Made by a program: the position numbers and the translations under genes. From positions 124,001-188,000 of the forward strand of contig CANLXN010000004.1 in the NCBI GenBank assembly GCA_947495135.1: a stretch of DNA of 64,000 nucleotides, read 5' to 3'. This DNA comes from an uncultured Flavobacteriaceae bacterium (lineage in GTDB: Bacteria; Bacteroidota; Bacteroidia; Flavobacteriales; Flavobacteriaceae). Within the stretch, counting starts at the first letter, position 1. Each line of letters opens with the position of its first letter. The notes under the pieces were generated by a model. That model saw only the letters and a program-made list of their open reading frames with translations. It ran no database searches and was not told where the DNA came from. This document shows, one piece after another, positions 5,499 to 14,435 of this stretch.

Positions 5499-6030
5499 AT
5501 GAACTTCAGTACACCTATAACGCGGATAGAAGTGCAAATTACGTTTTCTGAAAGGGTCTCCGTTAAAACGCTGTATTACAAGTAGCCTATGGTTCGGGAT
5601 AATGGTGTGCATCTCAAAATTTACCTCCTATCCAGAAAAATCGATCTTCAACAACCATTGCATCGATTCGATCCAGCTCCAACCTATCTTTCTTAGTAAA
5701 AGTGTTTTGAATAAATTTTCCCGATTAACTACATGCATTACTAGTCCCAATTAATAAAGATAAAAGCAACATGTACTTCAAAGGAAATAGACGTTTCGGG
5801 GGATGGATTAAGCTACTCTTCCAAATTTAAAATAAGGACATAATAGTATAAAATGATCGTCACTTTATTAGAAAGAAAAAAATGGAAGCAACCCGGCATT
5901 TTGTGGAGTCGCTTACTACTTCGTAATGCTTTAAGGAATATAGATTGCTTCCAAGATTTTCAAGTATACAATGGAAGATTGTATAACAGGGGCAATTTAA
6001 TTAATAATTTTCTTTTTAATCTAAGTACTA

Positions 6031-6729
6031 CTACGTAGAAAGGGTAAATTTTAACGTTTTTACAAGTCGTTCATTTTTATGTACCCAGTTTGTTAGACTA
6101 TTTGTCTTTTTAACTAGATGAAGTTTAGTGATAATATTACTCCTGTGCTTTTCTATAGTTCGTTTGCTAATTCCTAACGCATTAGCTATCTGCACTGTGT
6201 TGAGTCGTTCTCCAATTAAACATAGTACTTGTTTTTCAGTTTCTGAAAGAGACTCTAAGCTTCTCAGTATATCGTGTATTAGATCTATTTCAATAGACGA
6301 ATCCTCTTTGCTGAAACAGGTAGCTCCCTGCAGCACAGAATCAAGACACTCTTTTATAGAATTGAAACTATCGGCTGCATTTAATGTTCCCGAAACTCGA
6401 AGAGAATGAACAGCAACCAAATATTCGTGCTGCACGTCTGGAAAAATAATAATAAACTTGGTTTCTATTCCTCTTTCGGACACCATCCGCATGATATCGA
6501 ATGCAGAAAGCACAGGTAAGTCCGCATCAAGCATTGCAACCTTCGGAGGGCTTTCAATTATGGAATGTAAGGCTTCCGCACCAGTCTGCGCCATTTTTAC
6601 ATTCTGGTACTCGTTCTTGAGTCCATTATATAAGCCGTACAGATAAACTTCCTGACGATGCGCTAGAAGAAGTCCTTCTTGGGTCATTTTTTGAATTTTA
6701 GCGCAATATAGATGGTCATCAAGGACCAT
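6031..6729 (-). CDS. NarL/FixJ-type response regulator with degenerate receiver domain
   Basis: C-terminal LuxR HTH (LSETEKQVLCLIGERLNTVQIANALGISKRTIEKHRSNIITKLHL); receiver aligned to the 6810 regulator. Start could be 6687. Confidence 0.85.
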   Translation of the reverse strand: MVLDDHLYCAKIQKMTQEGLLLAHRQEVYLYGLYNGLKNEYQNVKMAQTGAEALHSIIESPPKVAMLDADLPVLSAFDIMRMVSERGIETKFIIIFPDVQHEYLVAVHSLRVSGTLNAADSFNSIKECLDSVLQGATCFSKEDSSIEIDLIHDILRSLESLSETEKQVLCLIGERLNTVQIANALGISKRTIEKHRSNIITKLHLVKKTNSLTNWVHKNERLVKTLKFTLST

Positions 6730-6733
6730 AAAA

Positions 6734-6770
6734 TACGTACAATTACGTATTATTTACGTAGTACTACGTA
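6734..6770. promoter_or_regulatory. four TACGTA palindromes in helical phase (candidate regulator-binding array)
   Basis: TACGTA at 6734, 6744, 6755, 6765 (spacings 10, 11, 10); the last two form the 16-bp perfect palindrome TACGTAGTACTACGTA. Confidence 0.6.
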
Positions 6771-6809: not shown

Positions 6810-7460
6810 CTATAGCTCCTGGATGATATTCTTGTTAATTAACGCCCAATTAGTCAACGAGTTGGTGCCACCGGAAAGGCTCAATTTCTCTTTAATATTG
6901 CTCCGATGCTTCTCTACCGTCCTGCTGGAGACACATAAGGTATCTGCTATATCATTAGAGGTGATTTGTTGAGAAATTAATTTTAGAATAGTGGTTTCTG
7001 AAGGAGTAAGTAGTTGAAGCTTTTTTAATTCTTCGGAAGCATTCTTGAGCGAAAACGAATCAAACGACCTACTAAAGTATTCTTCTCCTTTCAATACGGC
7101 TTCAATACAACGTTCTATATCGTAGAAAGAATCTTCTTTTAACAAATAACCATTAATATGAAAGGCCTTCGCCTGTGCAACATATTCTGCCTCTTTATGA
7201 AATGAAAGAACTATGAACTTAGTTTTAGAACCTTTTTCCTTTGCTGTTTTTATAACTTCAAATCCAGTAAGAATAGGCATATCAATGTCCAATAACGCAA
7301 CAGTAGGTTCATGTTTTAAAATGAGCTCCAACGCCTGCATTCCAGTAGCTCCTTGACCAAGAACATTGTATCCATTCTTCACAAGTTCCTCGTAAAGACC
7401 TTTCAGCAGCATGGGATGATCATCTGCAATAACTATGGTAAAATTGTCTTTTTCTATCAT
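6810..7460 (-). CDS. NarL/FixJ-type response regulator (canonical receiver + LuxR HTH)
   Basis: IVIADDHPMLLKGL, VALLDIDMP, YLLKED; LLTPSETTILKLISQQITSNDIADTLCVSSRTVEKHRSNIKEKL. Confidence 0.93.
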   Translation of the reverse strand: MIEKDNFTIVIADDHPMLLKGLYEELVKNGYNVLGQGATGMQALELILKHEPTVALLDIDMPILTGFEVIKTAKEKGSKTKFIVLSFHKEAEYVAQAKAFHINGYLLKEDSFYDIERCIEAVLKGEEYFSRSFDSFSLKNASEELKKLQLLTPSETTILKLISQQITSNDIADTLCVSSRTVEKHRSNIKEKLSLSGGTNSLTNWALINKNIIQEL

Positions 7461-7461
7461 C

Positions 7462-9480
7462 TTATGTAGGAATTACTAATAAAACGGTGGTTCCATCGTC
7501 TGGCGCACTACTTATTTTTAATTTAGACTTTAATATTTTAGCTCGTTCCATCAATGTTTTCATTCCCAAGCTTGATCCACTCTTTACTTTTTCAGAAAAC
7601 TCAAATCCTTTTCCATTATCCTTTATCCGAGCCTCTATTCCTGCTGCGCCATTGGTTATGGTAATGCTCGCAGCTTTTGCTTCAGAGTGTTTAACCATAT
7701 TACTGAGCACTTCTTGCATAATCCTGTACAGATGTAAAGAAGCATCCTTAGAAAGAAGTGCATCTACATTTGTGATTTCATGCGTAAAAAATATGTTCGT
7801 ATTAGCATCTACTTCATTAATTAACGATTCTAAAGCTGCTGTCAAACCTAGTCGTTCCATGGTTGCAGGATGTAAGCCTCTTGCAATATTTCTTAACTCT
7901 CCAAGAGTACCGTCCGCGAGTTCAGACATTTCTGTGTCGTTCTGCGCTCTAGTTCTTTTTGTGAGTAACATCAATTTCTGCCCAACGCTATCATGAAGTT
8001 CTCGTGCTACTCGTGTTCTTTCCTCTTCTTGCGCCTGTATTAAGCCTTGAGAAAAATCCTCCTGCATCTCTTGTCTTCTCCTTGCTGCATTTCGGGAACG
8101 CACTAAAATAATACTTCCAAATATAGCAAGCAACCCAAGGCCGCCAAAAAGCAGCCACTGATTCTTAATTTCATTCTTGGCATCTAACAACGCAATATCC
8201 TTCGTTTGTGTAGCAATTTTAGCATCTCTCTTTTCTGTTTCATACAAGGTCTGATAATAGGAAAGTGCTCTTACTTTTTGTACGTTAGTGATCGAATCTT
8301 TTAGGGAGGAATAGGATTTAAAGTATCTATATGCTAGTGCATCATTCCCAATTGCGCCATAAGTATCTGCTAAAAACTTTTCAGAGTTTAAAATATCCTC
8401 GTATCGATCCCCAGCCCTGCTCAAGTTTAGATATTCTTTACCATAAGACAGTGCTTTGTTGTAGTCTCCTTTGGCAAAATTATAATGCTTGAGAGATTTT
8501 ATGTAGGTTGCCCTATTCGATCCTTCTGTATACTTTTCTGGATTCTGTTCTAATTTATCCAACCACTCTCTCGCTTTTTCTATACTGTCACTTTTTGAGT
8601 ATGCAACAATCAAACTACCATAAAGACGCGGAATATGAACGTCTGGTTGTTCTACCATATTATTAAAAGCAATTGCCTTATTTAAACTTTCAATTTCCTC
8701 CAATGCCAATTTTTGCTTACCAGCGTCTGTCGCGGCGTTATGGTGGAAGGAAATGAGGTGTCCATAACTCTTCTTATCCATTGCCAAGGTAATCGCTTCA
8801 TCGCGCTCTTTCTTGGCTTCCTCAAAAAAAGCATTTTGACTGTACAAAATTGATAAGGTATTCTTTGCACTAATAATATTAAACGTGTCCTTACGTAGCT
8901 CAAACATTCTAGACGCTTCCTGAAGTAATTTGGAAGCTTCTGGGAAATCTCCCTTAAAACTTAAGGTTCCACCCCTATACAGTTTAGCTATCGCCTCCAA
9001 TTTTAAATTTCCTGCCTTTCGTGCTTGGTCTTCGGCAATAACGTAGTACGATATTGCTGGATCGTACTGACTAAGAAAATAAAAACTATCTGCACCTTCT
9101 ATGTAATACCTTGCCAGTTCATCATGGTTACTCGTGCTTTTAGCTACTTCTAAATAATCTAGAAAAACCTTCTTTCCCTCCTCTGCATTTCCCGCTCTAT
9201 TGTTATGATAAAAGATAAGGTTTGCCGTATGAGAAGTCGCAATTCTAGTAGAGTCTAGTTCTAAAGCAACACGGACCGTTTCTTTAACAATCGAATCACT
9301 GGTAAAATTAGTCTCTCGAACAATATAGTTAGACAAACTATCCATCCATTTGAGTTTTTCTCCTCTTTGAGAATTCTCAATTTTTTGGTTCAATTGATCG
9401 ATCAATTTCTCCTCAGATTGGTTCTGAGAAAAGATCACACTGGGGAGTAAAATGATGAGAAGAAGCTTATAAAATCTCAT
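7462..9480 (-). CDS. TPR-containing sensor histidine kinase (HisKA_3 / HATPase_c)
   Basis: Signal peptide, TPRs, TM WLLFGGLGLLAIFGSIILV, ARELHDSVGQKLMLLTKR, IKDNGKGFEF. Confidence 0.93.
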   Translation of the reverse strand: MRFYKLLLIILLPSVIFSQNQSEEKLIDQLNQKIENSQRGEKLKWMDSLSNYIVRETNFTSDSIVKETVRVALELDSTRIATSHTANLIFYHNNRAGNAEEGKKVFLDYLEVAKSTSNHDELARYYIEGADSFYFLSQYDPAISYYVIAEDQARKAGNLKLEAIAKLYRGGTLSFKGDFPEASKLLQEASRMFELRKDTFNIISAKNTLSILYSQNAFFEEAKKERDEAITLAMDKKSYGHLISFHHNAATDAGKQKLALEEIESLNKAIAFNNMVEQPDVHIPRLYGSLIVAYSKSDSIEKAREWLDKLEQNPEKYTEGSNRATYIKSLKHYNFAKGDYNKALSYGKEYLNLSRAGDRYEDILNSEKFLADTYGAIGNDALAYRYFKSYSSLKDSITNVQKVRALSYYQTLYETEKRDAKIATQTKDIALLDAKNEIKNQWLLFGGLGLLAIFGSIILVRSRNAARRRQEMQEDFSQGLIQAQEEERTRVARELHDSVGQKLMLLTKRTRAQNDTEMSELADGTLGELRNIARGLHPATMERLGLTAALESLINEVDANTNIFFTHEITNVDALLSKDASLHLYRIMQEVLSNMVKHSEAKAASITITNGAAGIEARIKDNGKGFEFSEKVKSGSSLGMKTLMERAKILKSKLKISSAPDDGTTVLLVIPT

Positions 9481-9522
9481 TTACAATTAGTTAGTTAAGT
9501 AAAGATATGGATTAAAATAGTT

Positions 9523-12372
9523 CTAAATAGGTATTTTTAATTCAATAACAGTTCCTTTATGTGGCTCACTTTTAATTTCTAACTTCGATTTTAAAATATG
9601 AGCTCGTTCCATGAGGGTGTTCATTCCAAGGCTAGCGCCACTTTTTAGCTTTTCTGAAAATTGAAAGCCTACCCCGTTGTCTTTAATAATCGCCTCAATG
9701 CTTTGTTTATGATGCTCAATGGTAACTGAAGCCGATTTAGCCTCGGCGTGTTTCACCATATTATTTAATACCTCTTGGATAATTCTGTAAAGGTGCAAGG
9801 CCTCCTCATCATTTAGTACTCCATCAATGTTTTCAATTTCATTGGTAAAGAAGATGTTGGTATTGGCATCCACTTCATTGATCATTACTTCTATTGCCTT
9901 CGTAAGCCCTAATTTTTCCAAATTAGCAGGGTGCAAGCCTCGAGATATACTTCTTAATTCCTCTAACGTATTATCTGCAAGTGAACCTATCGACTCGTCC
10001 TTAAAAGTTTTGGTCTTTTTAGTAAGCAACATTAATTTTTGCCCAACGCTATCGTGCAATTCTCTCGCCACACGGGTTCGTTCTTCTTCTTGCGCCTTAA
10101 TTAGACCCTGAGTAAATTTCTGTCGGCGTAATTGTAGTCTCTTATTTCTTAAATAAAGTATGAAAACTGTTCCTAGAGATATCAATGTGAGTGTTACAAA
10201 CCAAAATAAAGGAGTACGCCAAAATGGAACTTTTATGGTAAAAGGATAAGACACCACCGAATCCTGCCAAATTCCATTTCCATTGTCTGCCGTAAATTCG
10301 AACGTATAATCTCCTGGCGGTAGATAAGAAAACACAACTTCTGTCTTTTGAGTGGGAGAAGACCATTCGTCCCCATCTCTCAATCCTTTCAGTCTATATT
10401 TATACAATACCGTCTCTGGAAATGTGAAAGTAATGGCTTCCATTGAAAAGGTGAGGTAGTTTTTTTTATATGGCAATACTATTTTGTCCTCTTCTCTATA
10501 AAGAGAATCTTCTAGTGGCTCTGCAAAAAGCATTACTCCTTTTAAATCAATCGCAGGTGGCGCTGTATGTGTTAAGTAGTCGTTTTCAGAAAAAACCACC
10601 ATCCCGTAATCTGATGCGCCAAGCAAATTTCCATTCGCATCAATCTCTAAATTATCATTATTTATTTCATAAGAGACAAAACCCGAGTTGCTTTTATAAC
10701 TCACCATATCCAAACTATCCTCTTCCATAAGCTTCTTAAGATGGACTTTACTAAACGTATTCTCAGAGGCTAGCCAGAGGTAATCTCCACTCGCTCTCAT
10801 CGCTTTGATATTCTTTAGTGCTCCAAATCTTTTTAAGTCAATTATTTGGACCGTGTCCTTATCTTTTTTCCGCTTAACCCGATACAAGTTTTTATCATTC
10901 AATGCTAAAAATTCATTGTTTGAAATACTTTCAACACTAAAAAAAAGATCGTGTTTCTTGGGGTGTAGCCCAGCAATTGTATCTCTTTTGAAGTCTTTCA
11001 ATTGTAAAATCGAACTAAGTCTGGCAACTGCATGGCCTTCTCCAAAAGGAACCACTCGAAAAGTTCGCCTAAATGGGATCTTAAAAACACTGTCTTTTGC
11101 ATGTATATCTGCATGCTTTCCGCCTATTAAGAATGTATAATCCTCATCCTCGTATAAGTCTGAATAGTCCCCTTCTGCAAAGAGGGTCCTATTTCCTATA
11201 TCATTATATAAATGAACTTCCGTTTCGGTCGCCAAGAGCAATTGATCTTTAGTAGTTACAATACATTCTATAATCTTAGTGCCTATAAAGTCGGTTGCAA
11301 TTACCCGTCCATCTTTAATAAACGCAAGCCCATTATCTGTTGTGACCACCCAAAAATCTCTCCAAGGAAGAGCCGTGCTCACCGTACTATTAGGCAAACC
11401 CTGATCGGCATCATAAAACAAAAAGGCATCATCTCGGTATCTTATAAGGCCGCCACTATACGAGGCCATCCAATAATTATTCTCAGTATCTTTAATATGA
11501 TGATAAATATAGTTTGAGGGTAATCCATTTTTCGCGTTTACGACCTCAAACGTTTTAGTCGTTTTGTTGAATTTTAGCAATCCATTTCCTTCTGTACCAA
11601 GCATTAAATAATTGGTTCCTTCGGCAGAAATACTCCAAATCCTATTATCGTTCACATTGTTTGGATCTGGCAAATATTCTGTGGTAGTATCTCCTTCAAT
11701 TTTAAAAAGACCACCGTAACAGCCTACCCAAATAGTTCCGTTCTCTTCGCGATATACGCTATACGATACATTATTAATTCCATGAGATTTATTATCAATC
11801 ACTTGCACATCAAATGGCTCAACGGTAATTCGAAACAATCCATTCCTGATGGAGGTCATTAAAATGGTGTTTTCATCCTCCCAAATAGCGTCGTTCGGTA
11901 AATAGCCATTAGTTCTTGAAGTATCTAACTCCTGATGCTTTCCATTTTCAAAAGTTAAAATTCCTTGATTCGCAAATATGTAAATCACGCCATTTTTGTC
12001 TTCCAAAAATCCGTTCACCGCTCCTAATTTGAAGTAGTCGTAATCCTGGGGCACGATCACCCTTCCGTTCTTTATATAACAAACTCCTTTATTCACCGTT
12101 GCGATCCACATCCTTCCCGAAGAGTCTTCAAAAAGCTCCATAATGAGGTTGGACGGCAAACCATCATCTTTTGTATAATTGACAAAGGAATTTCCGTTAA
12201 AAACACTTACCCCGCCTAAGGTAGCAATCCAAATTCTTCCGTCTTTAGCCTGCAAAACATCATATGCCTGATTATGTGCCAAACCATCATCAACGGTATA
12301 CTGCTTGAAGTGATTGCGTTGAGCAAACAGCATAGCTGGAAGTAATAAAAGTATTAAAACTCTAAGATTCAT
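9523..12372 (-). CDS. two-component propeller sensor histidine kinase (Reg_prop / Y_Y_Y / HisKA_3)
   Basis: Repeated DGRIWIATLGGVSVFNG/SSGRMWIATVNKGV propeller units, Y_Y_Y-like region, ARELHDSVGQKLMLLTKK, IKDNGVGF. Confidence 0.93.
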   Translation of the reverse strand: MNLRVLILLLLPAMLFAQRNHFKQYTVDDGLAHNQAYDVLQAKDGRIWIATLGGVSVFNGNSFVNYTKDDGLPSNLIMELFEDSSGRMWIATVNKGVCYIKNGRVIVPQDYDYFKLGAVNGFLEDKNGVIYIFANQGILTFENGKHQELDTSRTNGYLPNDAIWEDENTILMTSIRNGLFRITVEPFDVQVIDNKSHGINNVSYSVYREENGTIWVGCYGGLFKIEGDTTTEYLPDPNNVNDNRIWSISAEGTNYLMLGTEGNGLLKFNKTTKTFEVVNAKNGLPSNYIYHHIKDTENNYWMASYSGGLIRYRDDAFLFYDADQGLPNSTVSTALPWRDFWVVTTDNGLAFIKDGRVIATDFIGTKIIECIVTTKDQLLLATETEVHLYNDIGNRTLFAEGDYSDLYEDEDYTFLIGGKHADIHAKDSVFKIPFRRTFRVVPFGEGHAVARLSSILQLKDFKRDTIAGLHPKKHDLFFSVESISNNEFLALNDKNLYRVKRKKDKDTVQIIDLKRFGALKNIKAMRASGDYLWLASENTFSKVHLKKLMEEDSLDMVSYKSNSGFVSYEINNDNLEIDANGNLLGASDYGMVVFSENDYLTHTAPPAIDLKGVMLFAEPLEDSLYREEDKIVLPYKKNYLTFSMEAITFTFPETVLYKYRLKGLRDGDEWSSPTQKTEVVFSYLPPGDYTFEFTADNGNGIWQDSVVSYPFTIKVPFWRTPLFWFVTLTLISLGTVFILYLRNKRLQLRRQKFTQGLIKAQEEERTRVARELHDSVGQKLMLLTKKTKTFKDESIGSLADNTLEELRSISRGLHPANLEKLGLTKAIEVMINEVDANTNIFFTNEIENIDGVLNDEEALHLYRIIQEVLNNMVKHAEAKSASVTIEHHKQSIEAIIKDNGVGFQFSEKLKSGASLGMNTLMERAHILKSKLEIKSEPHKGTVIELKIPI

Positions 12373-12419
12373 TAAAATGATTGGTTCAATTCGCTGTAAA
12401 TATACCGATTTACGAAAGT

Positions 12420-14435
12420 TTAAATTGGGATACTTAGGCTAACTGTCGTTCCGTTGGTAACGGCCCCGGTAATCTCCAGTTTCGATTTCAAGATTTTGGC
12501 TCGCTCCAACAATGTCTTCATTCCCAAGCTAGTAGTGTTTTTTATTTTTTCTGAAAAAACAAATCCCCTTCCATTGTCTTGGATAAGCGCTTCTATTTTA
12601 CCATCTTTTTTCTCGATAGTTACAGAAGCCGATTTAGCGTCAGCATGCTTTACCAAATTATTCAAAACTTCTTGCACTATTCTGTATAAATGAAGTGAAT
12701 CCTCTTTCTTTAGCAACCCATCAATATTTTCGATTTCGTTGGTGAAAAATATGTTAGTATTGGCGTCTACTTCATTGATCATTGCTTCTATGGCCTTTGT
12801 AAGACCCAATCGTTCCAAATTAGCTGGGTGTAGACCTCTGGAAATGTTGCGTAATTCTTCCAAGGTATTATCTGCCAAAGAACCGACCTCAGGATCCCCA
12901 AAACTTCTTGTTTTTCTTGTGAGCATCATCAATTTTTGACCAACACCGTCATGCAACTCTCTTGCCACCCTAGTTCGTTCCTCTTCCTGCGCCTGAATTA
13001 AATCCTGAGAAAATACTTCCTGCATTTTAACCCTTTGGCGTGCCGAATTCCGCGAACGTACTAAAAGCACTAATCCAAAAACTCCTAATAGACCCAAACC
13101 ACCAAAAAGCAGTAACTGATTTTGCAACTTCGCTTTGGCATCGAGCAGGGCAATATCGTCTATCTGACTTTTAATAGTAGCATCTCTCTTTTCTGTCTCG
13201 TACAGGGTTTGATAATAGGTTAATGACTTTACATTTTGAACACTTGATATGGAATCTCGTATCCGGTAGTACTCAATAAGATGAGCGTTAGAATTATTGC
13301 GATCGCCCATAGACTTGTACACATCGGCCAGAAACTTTTCAGCATTATAGATTTCCACAAATCCGTCCTCACTTCTTTTTGCAGCTAAGTGCTCTTTTCC
13401 ATATTTCAAGGCATTTGGAAAGTCTTTTTTCGCAAACGCTAGCTGTTTGAGGGCTTCTATGTAAAAGTCTCTGTTGTCTCCTTCTGTATAAGTCACTCCA
13501 TTTCGTTCTATTTCTGAAAGATATTCTTCTGCCAATGCCAAACTATCGCTTTCGGCATATGCAATCACTAGATTGGTTAGAATGTTGGGACGCATCGCAC
13601 GTCGATAATCCGATTTTTCATTTTCATCCAACGATAACTTCAGGTAACGAATTCGCTCTTCATAATTGCCTTCCATCCGTTTGTCGGCCGCAGCGTTGTA
13701 ATAAATGGCAACCAAGGGTCCGCCGCCTAAATTTTTACACAAAGCAATGGCTTCGTTTCGTTCCATTTCAGCTTGCTTATAAAAGGCATTCTGACTGTAA
13801 AGAATGGAAAGCGCGTTTTTAGCATTCACCATATTTATGGTATCCCCAATTTCGGTAAAAATCCTACCCGCCTCTTGATTTGTTATAGAGGCCTTGGAAA
13901 AAAGTCCTTTTTCAGAAAAAGCATACGCTAATCGCAAGGTAATGGTGGCAATTCTATTTTTATCGCCCGAGGCAAGGGCATATTTCTTTGCCTTTTCAAA
14001 AGTGGCTATTGCCTCATCATTTTTTTTCAGACCAAGAAAACAATCCCCACCATACAAATATAAATTAGCGATGGTTTTGTTGTTTTCCAGGCCTTTTTCT
14101 TTTCCAGCGAAGGCTTCAAAAATCCTTAAACCTTCCTCAGACTTCCCGAGGATACTACTTTTATAATAGATTAAATCGCCAGTGTACCGGGTAGCTATAT
14201 CTAAAGAGTCTAAAACTAATGCATGTTTTATGGTCTGTCTAACTAAAGAATCGTAATTGTAACGATCGTTAAATTCGACCAATAGAGAAAGGCTATCCAT
14301 GAGCTGAAGTTTTTCGATCGAATGAGCACTTCTTATTTTTTCTTTAAGCTCGCCTACAACGGCATCAAGATTGGATTCCTGAGCTGATGAAAAATTGCTT
14401 AAAAAAAGTAGAAAAACGAGGGAAAGATGTTTCAT
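12420..14435 (-). CDS. TPR-containing sensor histidine kinase (paralog of 7462-9480)
   Basis: Start moved to MKHLSLVFLLFLSNFSSAQ (14435); ARELHDGVGQKLMMLTRK; IQDNGRGFVF. Confidence 0.92.
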   Translation of the reverse strand: MKHLSLVFLLFLSNFSSAQESNLDAVVGELKEKIRSAHSIEKLQLMDSLSLLVEFNDRYNYDSLVRQTIKHALVLDSLDIATRYTGDLIYYKSSILGKSEEGLRIFEAFAGKEKGLENNKTIANLYLYGGDCFLGLKKNDEAIATFEKAKKYALASGDKNRIATITLRLAYAFSEKGLFSKASITNQEAGRIFTEIGDTINMVNAKNALSILYSQNAFYKQAEMERNEAIALCKNLGGGPLVAIYYNAAADKRMEGNYEERIRYLKLSLDENEKSDYRRAMRPNILTNLVIAYAESDSLALAEEYLSEIERNGVTYTEGDNRDFYIEALKQLAFAKKDFPNALKYGKEHLAAKRSEDGFVEIYNAEKFLADVYKSMGDRNNSNAHLIEYYRIRDSISSVQNVKSLTYYQTLYETEKRDATIKSQIDDIALLDAKAKLQNQLLLFGGLGLLGVFGLVLLVRSRNSARQRVKMQEVFSQDLIQAQEEERTRVARELHDGVGQKLMMLTRKTRSFGDPEVGSLADNTLEELRNISRGLHPANLERLGLTKAIEAMINEVDANTNIFFTNEIENIDGLLKKEDSLHLYRIVQEVLNNLVKHADAKSASVTIEKKDGKIEALIQDNGRGFVFSEKIKNTTSLGMKTLLERAKILKSKLEITGAVTNGTTVSLSIPI

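Follow-up and report, generated by a model that had tools for sequence, protein, structure and literature searches.

Tandem TACGTA dyads ahead of a degenerate response regulator gene: a predicted operator associated with NarL-type regulators in Bacteroidota

To our knowledge, the operators of NarL-type response regulators in Bacteroidota are largely unknown. NarL of Escherichia coli carries the recognition helix S-T-V-K-V-H-V-K-H, and the consensus of its heptamers is TACYYMT. It binds inverted heptamers in a 7-2-7 arrangement, for example at the engineered narG -89 site TACCCCTAAAGGGGTA (PMC4549865). The 7-2-7 sites through which it activates napF and yeaR lie at -40 to -49 and -38 to -47, respectively (PMC4549865). 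The TACGTA array analysed here resembles these sites in several respects: it is built of 16-bp inverted repeats with outer TAC-N10-GTA, it is associated with a regulator containing a NarL/LuxR-type helix-turn-helix (HTH), and it would occupy a class II position (PMC4549865). In contrast to the NarL site, its inner bases are fixed as CGT(A/G)..(T/C)ACG, its dyads stand in tandem 21 bp apart and it is located 3' of the regulator gene. The half-site is TACGTR and does not agree with the NarL heptamer consensus, and the recognition helix, R-T-V-E-K-H-R-S-N, is unlike that of NarL. Judged by sequence, the dyad would work like a 7-2-7 site, yet it differs from the NarL sites of E. coli; as a kind, a NarL-type activator site is already known.

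PDB matches of the regulator include NarL and DesR, and DesR, VraR, EvgA and RcsB are among the best profile matches of its family. The two-domain architecture is common to DesR, VraR, EvgA and RcsB, NarL-family proteins with solved structures, and to the regulator described here. Their operators differ from the TACGTA dyad, and no such dyad was described for any of the four in the literature found. As for promoters, the box found at a fixed distance from our dyads matches the sigma-A box TAnnTTTG and the SM5 box TAnnTTGY of Bacteroidota, the latter placed at -12 to -5 in Flavobacterium psychrophilum; unlike the dyad-linked box, SM5 is described with no upstream activator site in the portion of that paper used here (PMC9723704). 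Finally, single-domain and atypical response regulators likewise include separate degenerate receivers next to a canonical regulator. In our case, the degenerate receiver differs from these in that the canonical regulator presumably induces it via tandem dyads, and in the replacement of its acidic pair by H(R/S).

The array spans positions 6734-6770 of the window, i.e. of the whole 64-kb stretch that was analysed. TACGTA starts at 6734, 6744, 6755 and 6765 (start-to-start spacing 10/11/10), positions 6755-6770 form the perfect palindrome TACGTAGTACTACGTA, and a fifth copy (6032-6037) overlaps the stop codon of the downstream regulator gene, RR1; on all these points the earlier note was confirmed. 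With 16 copies against a shuffle mean of 9.4, TACGTA is somewhat enriched in the window, which could favour a chance cluster of a short palindrome. However, 6734-6770 is the only place in the 64 kb with at least three exact copies inside about 46 bp, none of 600 windows simulated with a third-order Markov model contained even three within 46 bp, and any TACGTA-N4-TACGTA appeared in one of the 600. Across the complete 4.29-Mb genome (G000), TACGTA-N{2,7}-TACGTA was matched 11 times, ten times with N4 and once with N5, and the reversed control gave no match. The same N4 preference was seen in further genomes from the genus and the family. The probability of a chance cluster is thus negligible, and this explanation was rejected, being refuted by the conservation tests given below.

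The sole N5 match in the genome is the inner pair of the array itself, from which it follows that the array comprises two 16-bp dyads of the form TACGTA-N4-TACGTA, a promoter-proximal one at 6734-6749 (TACGTAATTGTACGTA, read on the minus strand) and a distal one at 6755-6770, with centres 21 bp, or two DNA turns, apart. Of the proposed four phased TACGTA sites, then, the helical phasing and the reading as a regulator operator were supported, whereas their independence was not: four independent sites were rejected, since the genome-wide N4 preference makes the 16-bp dyad the unit. Over homologous loci, the consensus is TACGTR-N4-YACGTA. The genome matches it perfectly at 16 places and the reversed control at none, and the only perfect copies inside the window are the two of the array. 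Dyads with one mismatch were found in the window at 6022-6037 and at 8882-8897, the latter within a kinase gene.

The array lies between two regulator genes on the minus strand. RR2 (6810-7460), the proposed binder and activator, is an intact NarL/LuxR-type response regulator, with a complete receiver (Response_reg E 1.2e-18; ADDHP, D58, K108) and a C-terminal GerE/LuxR HTH (GerE E 1.9e-10). Directly upstream of it lies a histidine kinase gene (7462-9480, minus; TPR, HisKA_3, HATPase_c), followed by a second one (9523-12372, minus; Reg_prop, Y_Y_Y, HisKA_3, HATPase_c). Further upstream, a 671-aa kinase-like gene of TPR-type appearance was observed at 12420-14435 (minus), so that a row of three kinase-like genes (7462-14435, minus) stands ahead of one intact regulator. 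RR1 (6031-6687, minus), the predicted output gene, encodes a degenerate NarL-type regulator, in which ADDHP is replaced by AHRQ and the conserved Lys is lost, while the phospho-Asp is kept. Its Response_reg score of 23.0 bits falls under the cut-off of 30.2, and intact receiver chemistry is thus missing, whereas its HTH (SKRTIEKHRSNI) is intact and nearly identical to that of RR2, with the same recognition helix. A first contig scan with RR1 found no relative.

Next to the dyads, a promoter geometry emerged that was shared among loci. A -7 box (TAnnTTT or TAnnTTG) occurred at exactly 23 nt past the promoter-proximal dyad, toward the next gene, in 52 of 67 single-dyad loci and in all eight tandem-dyad loci, whereas counts at any other spacing were close to zero. 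Around 133 unique perfect dyads, TAnnTT peaked at 23 (37 dyads) and 44 (15 dyads; 44 being 23+21), and a second CGTA was present at +17 in 15, which is the 21-bp tandem register. In the window, the box TATATTGC, of the TAnnTTGY type, occupies 6703-6710 (minus) and is separated from the proximal dyad by the 23-nt spacer of conserved length (6711-6733, minus). This assignment as a -7 box and the predicted RR1 transcription start, at about 6698, are based on the SM5 motif, which was defined in another genus (PMC9723704); the dyads would then be centred near -43.5 (proximal) and -64.5 (distal). The dyad thus appears to adjoin the -33/-35 region and to keep a constant distance to the -7/-10 box, as in a class II promoter. 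A scan for sigma-70 type promoters (7 found vs. 4.4 expected) was uninformative for this phylum. RR1 most likely starts at the ATG at 6687 (MTQEG) with an 11-nt leader, rather than at the mechanically called 6729, since the latter would lie upstream of the predicted transcription start. For this reason, the gap between the two regulator genes, taken to be 80 bp in the earlier note, is in fact about 122 bp.

The fixed spacing bears also on the possibility that the array acts as an RNA, namely as a terminator or other hairpin at the end of RR2, and not as a DNA site. The perfect palindrome at 6755-6770 indeed lies just past the RR2 stop, but it is followed by no T-run, no terminator was found there, and many dyads have an inner N4 without self-complementarity. 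A terminator hairpin at 6755-6770 was rejected for lack of a T-run and because of the fixed promoter spacing, and an RNA function of the array in general seems very improbable.

We then asked how often the dyad accompanies such regulators, using 108 distinct RR2 homologues with enough flank and allowing up to one mismatch within 200 bp. A dyad was present 3' of the regulator stop in 75 of the 108, compared with 0.15 of 108 in shuffled flanks, and 5' of the regulator in one. The loci span Flavobacteriaceae, Algoriphagus, Membranihabitans, Portibacter, Brumimicrobium and a Pyrinomonadaceae MAG; in Roseivirga, the dyad is on the 5' side. No 3' dyad was present in 33 homologues, direct RR2 orthologues among them. 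Conservation had been set beforehand as a refuting test, and the outcome was divided: the motif is conserved across the family, but in direct RR2 orthologues of Aequorivita, Luteirhabdus and G050 both the array and RR1 are absent and RR2 abuts a convergent esterase gene. The frequent position 3' of the regulator gene nevertheless points to the adjacent NarL/LuxR-type family as the best candidate binder, as had been proposed. Autoregulation of RR2, which had also been suggested, is unsupported, because no dyad (up to two mismatches) was found 5' of the kinase-RR2 gene string, and the dyads are instead located 3' of RR2.

The association also varied with the recognition helix. Among regulators with R-T-V-x-K-H, i.e. 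with Lys immediately preceding the conserved His, 73 of 94 had the dyad, while none of nine with Asn or Ser in this position did; the Fisher value of 6e-6 is inflated by shared ancestry, as related sequences are not independent. Might the dyads instead be sites of an unrelated transcription factor that has these loci in its regulon by happenstance? Dyads in front of curlin, HYR and other genes distant from regulator genes would agree with this. However, the presence of the site directly 3' of 75 of 108 regulators with differing neighbouring genes, the NarL-type geometry and position and the link to a recognition-helix residue make it quite improbable. Within the NarL family, the in vivo binder may be shared, since paralogues at two other loci of the genome (C2 and C3), as well as RR1 itself, have the same recognition helix as RR2. 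Similar dyads were also observed in G010 (L048:5245, L049:5270-5295) by nitrate/nitrite reductase-like genes, beside a NarL regulator whose recognition helix differs (RTIETHR), and the dyad is therefore not exclusive to the RR2 clade.

A paralogous locus of the same genome, C2:431850-433043 (L017:7851-9044), repeats the dyad architecture. Here, a kinase and a regulator are followed by tandem dyads, 23 nt, TACCTTGC and a degenerate receiver without HTH, and then by a second set of tandem dyads with a degenerate proximal member, 23 nt, TACCTTGC and a 1667-aa HYR protein with a T9SS sorting domain. Psychroserpens (L150) has the full C2-like layout with a surface-protein-like gene last, and Lutibacter (L152) its first half only (kinase, regulator, dyads, degenerate receiver). 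In the degenerate receivers of both these genera, the phospho-Asp is replaced by Glu. As the C2 and Psychroserpens receivers lack any HTH and that of Lutibacter is degenerate, the recurring feature is the degenerate receiver and not its HTH.

These loci also bear on the question whether RR1 could be the main binder, its HTH occupying the dyads and autorepressing its own promoter. The near match of the RR1 and RR2 HTH and the location of the sites in RR1's own promoter, with one overlapping its stop, speak for such a role. On the other hand, the dyads are kept in C2, Psychroserpens and Lutibacter despite the missing or degenerate HTH of their receivers, and most dyad-bearing loci contain no degenerate regulator at all. 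We therefore regard RR1 as an unlikely main binder, while some autoregulation by RR1 is possible, as its HTH is intact.

The third dyad of the window (6022-6037, TACGTAGTAGTACTTA on the minus strand, one mismatch) contains the fifth TACGTA at the RR1 stop. A possible -7 box, TAAATTGC, is present 22 nt past it (5992-5999, minus), followed by a candidate short non-coding transcript of about 110 nt (5877-5987, minus; z -4.19), which ends in a terminator-like hairpin and T-run. No convincing homologue of this candidate RNA was found in 20 relatives, no surface-protein gene or remnant was found in its region, and an Rfam search of the window gave no match.

The dyad, its 21-bp tandem spacing, the 23-nt distance to the box, the 3' position across Bacteroidota and the degenerate-receiver module are all computed features. 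As for the binder, the activation and the role of RR1, we infer that 6734-6770 is a two-dyad operator, from which RR2 activates the RR1 promoter in a class II manner and RR1 feeds back, a reading to which we assign a probability of about 0.78. According to this model, one or more of the kinases would phosphorylate RR2, and phosphorylated RR2 would bind each TACGTR-N4-YACGTA dyad as a dimer, two dimers lying side by side on one DNA face (21 bp, two turns). The proximal dyad near -43.5 would set RR2 beside RNA polymerase and the TAnnTTGY promoter would be switched on, leading to transcription of the degenerate regulator RR1. RR1, presumably not normally phosphorylatable, would probably exert feedback, with RR2, the kinase or the dyads themselves as target, which could proceed through mixed dimers, via the kinase or by competition for the dyads.

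Other outputs of the site are diverse. Elsewhere in the genome, dyads also precede HYR/T9SS and curlin-repeat proteins, some of them far from any regulator gene; elsewhere in Flavobacteriaceae, the site is followed by small RNAs in tandem, by small membrane peptides or by surface proteins of the HYR/T9SS type. Dyads were also observed near nrdA in four genomes (the own genome, G007, G013 and G021; L022:5930-9174, L034:5147-6384, L041:4915, L043:4923), and those in the own genome and G007 precede curlin-repeat genes. In a branch of homologues located beside odhB (identified by sequence as the gene for dihydrolipoyl succinyltransferase), dyads stand ahead of up to three tandem units, either RNA or peptide. 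The RNA unit of about 65 nt starts with GCUAUUAAU and carries a terminator hairpin. Of the 14 pairs of this hairpin, 13 are changed on both sides (52 cells, compared with 12.6 for shuffles). The peptide unit encodes 30-50 aa with a single helix.

Tandem small RNAs of this kind (5' GCUAUUAAUUAGUUCUUAGGGAGAAUU, covarying terminator), each with its own dyad, were observed in the interval between the NarL regulator and odhB in many Flavobacteriaceae (L042:5902-6451, L088:1216-1433, L175:2198-2676, L179:3186-3398 and others). Rfam searches of small-RNA loci yielded only a tRNA and chance-level matches, and nothing in three further loci. The F. psychrophilum small RNA Rfp18 is described with a third stem-loop, unlike the units of about 65 nt (PMC9723704). 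Tiny single-helix membrane peptides (30-50 aa) following regulator and dyad were noted at L040:6160-6258, L042:6000-6100, L047:5330-5435, L075 and L078. At L018:5815-6125 and L032:4960-5265, in two species, the dyad is followed by a conserved stretch TAATACTAGA...CTGGGGAGC without Rfam match.

No description of TACGTA with flavobacterial or Bacteroidetes regulators, of the operator sequence, of its place 3' of the regulator gene or of a degenerate-receiver output was found in the open-access literature searched. From its sequence context, the site would read as a widespread switch, apparently not described so far, that turns on the next gene, in our case a crippled regulator copy. More tentatively, and with somewhat less than even confidence, we propose a widespread Bacteroidota module, in which a NarL-type regulator has its own operator immediately 3' of its gene and the first product is a dedicated pseudo-regulator or a small RNA or peptide tuning the same pathway, ahead of T9SS adhesins and curli; the window would then represent the pseudo-regulator form, with the DNA-binding domain still intact. 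With its constant distance to the promoter, the dyad can be used to predict regulons from sequence across many genera. It connects two-component systems of this type with surface adhesins, HYR proteins and curlins and suggests a family of small RNAs linked to such regulators, and it opens the role of the degenerate regulator to direct testing.
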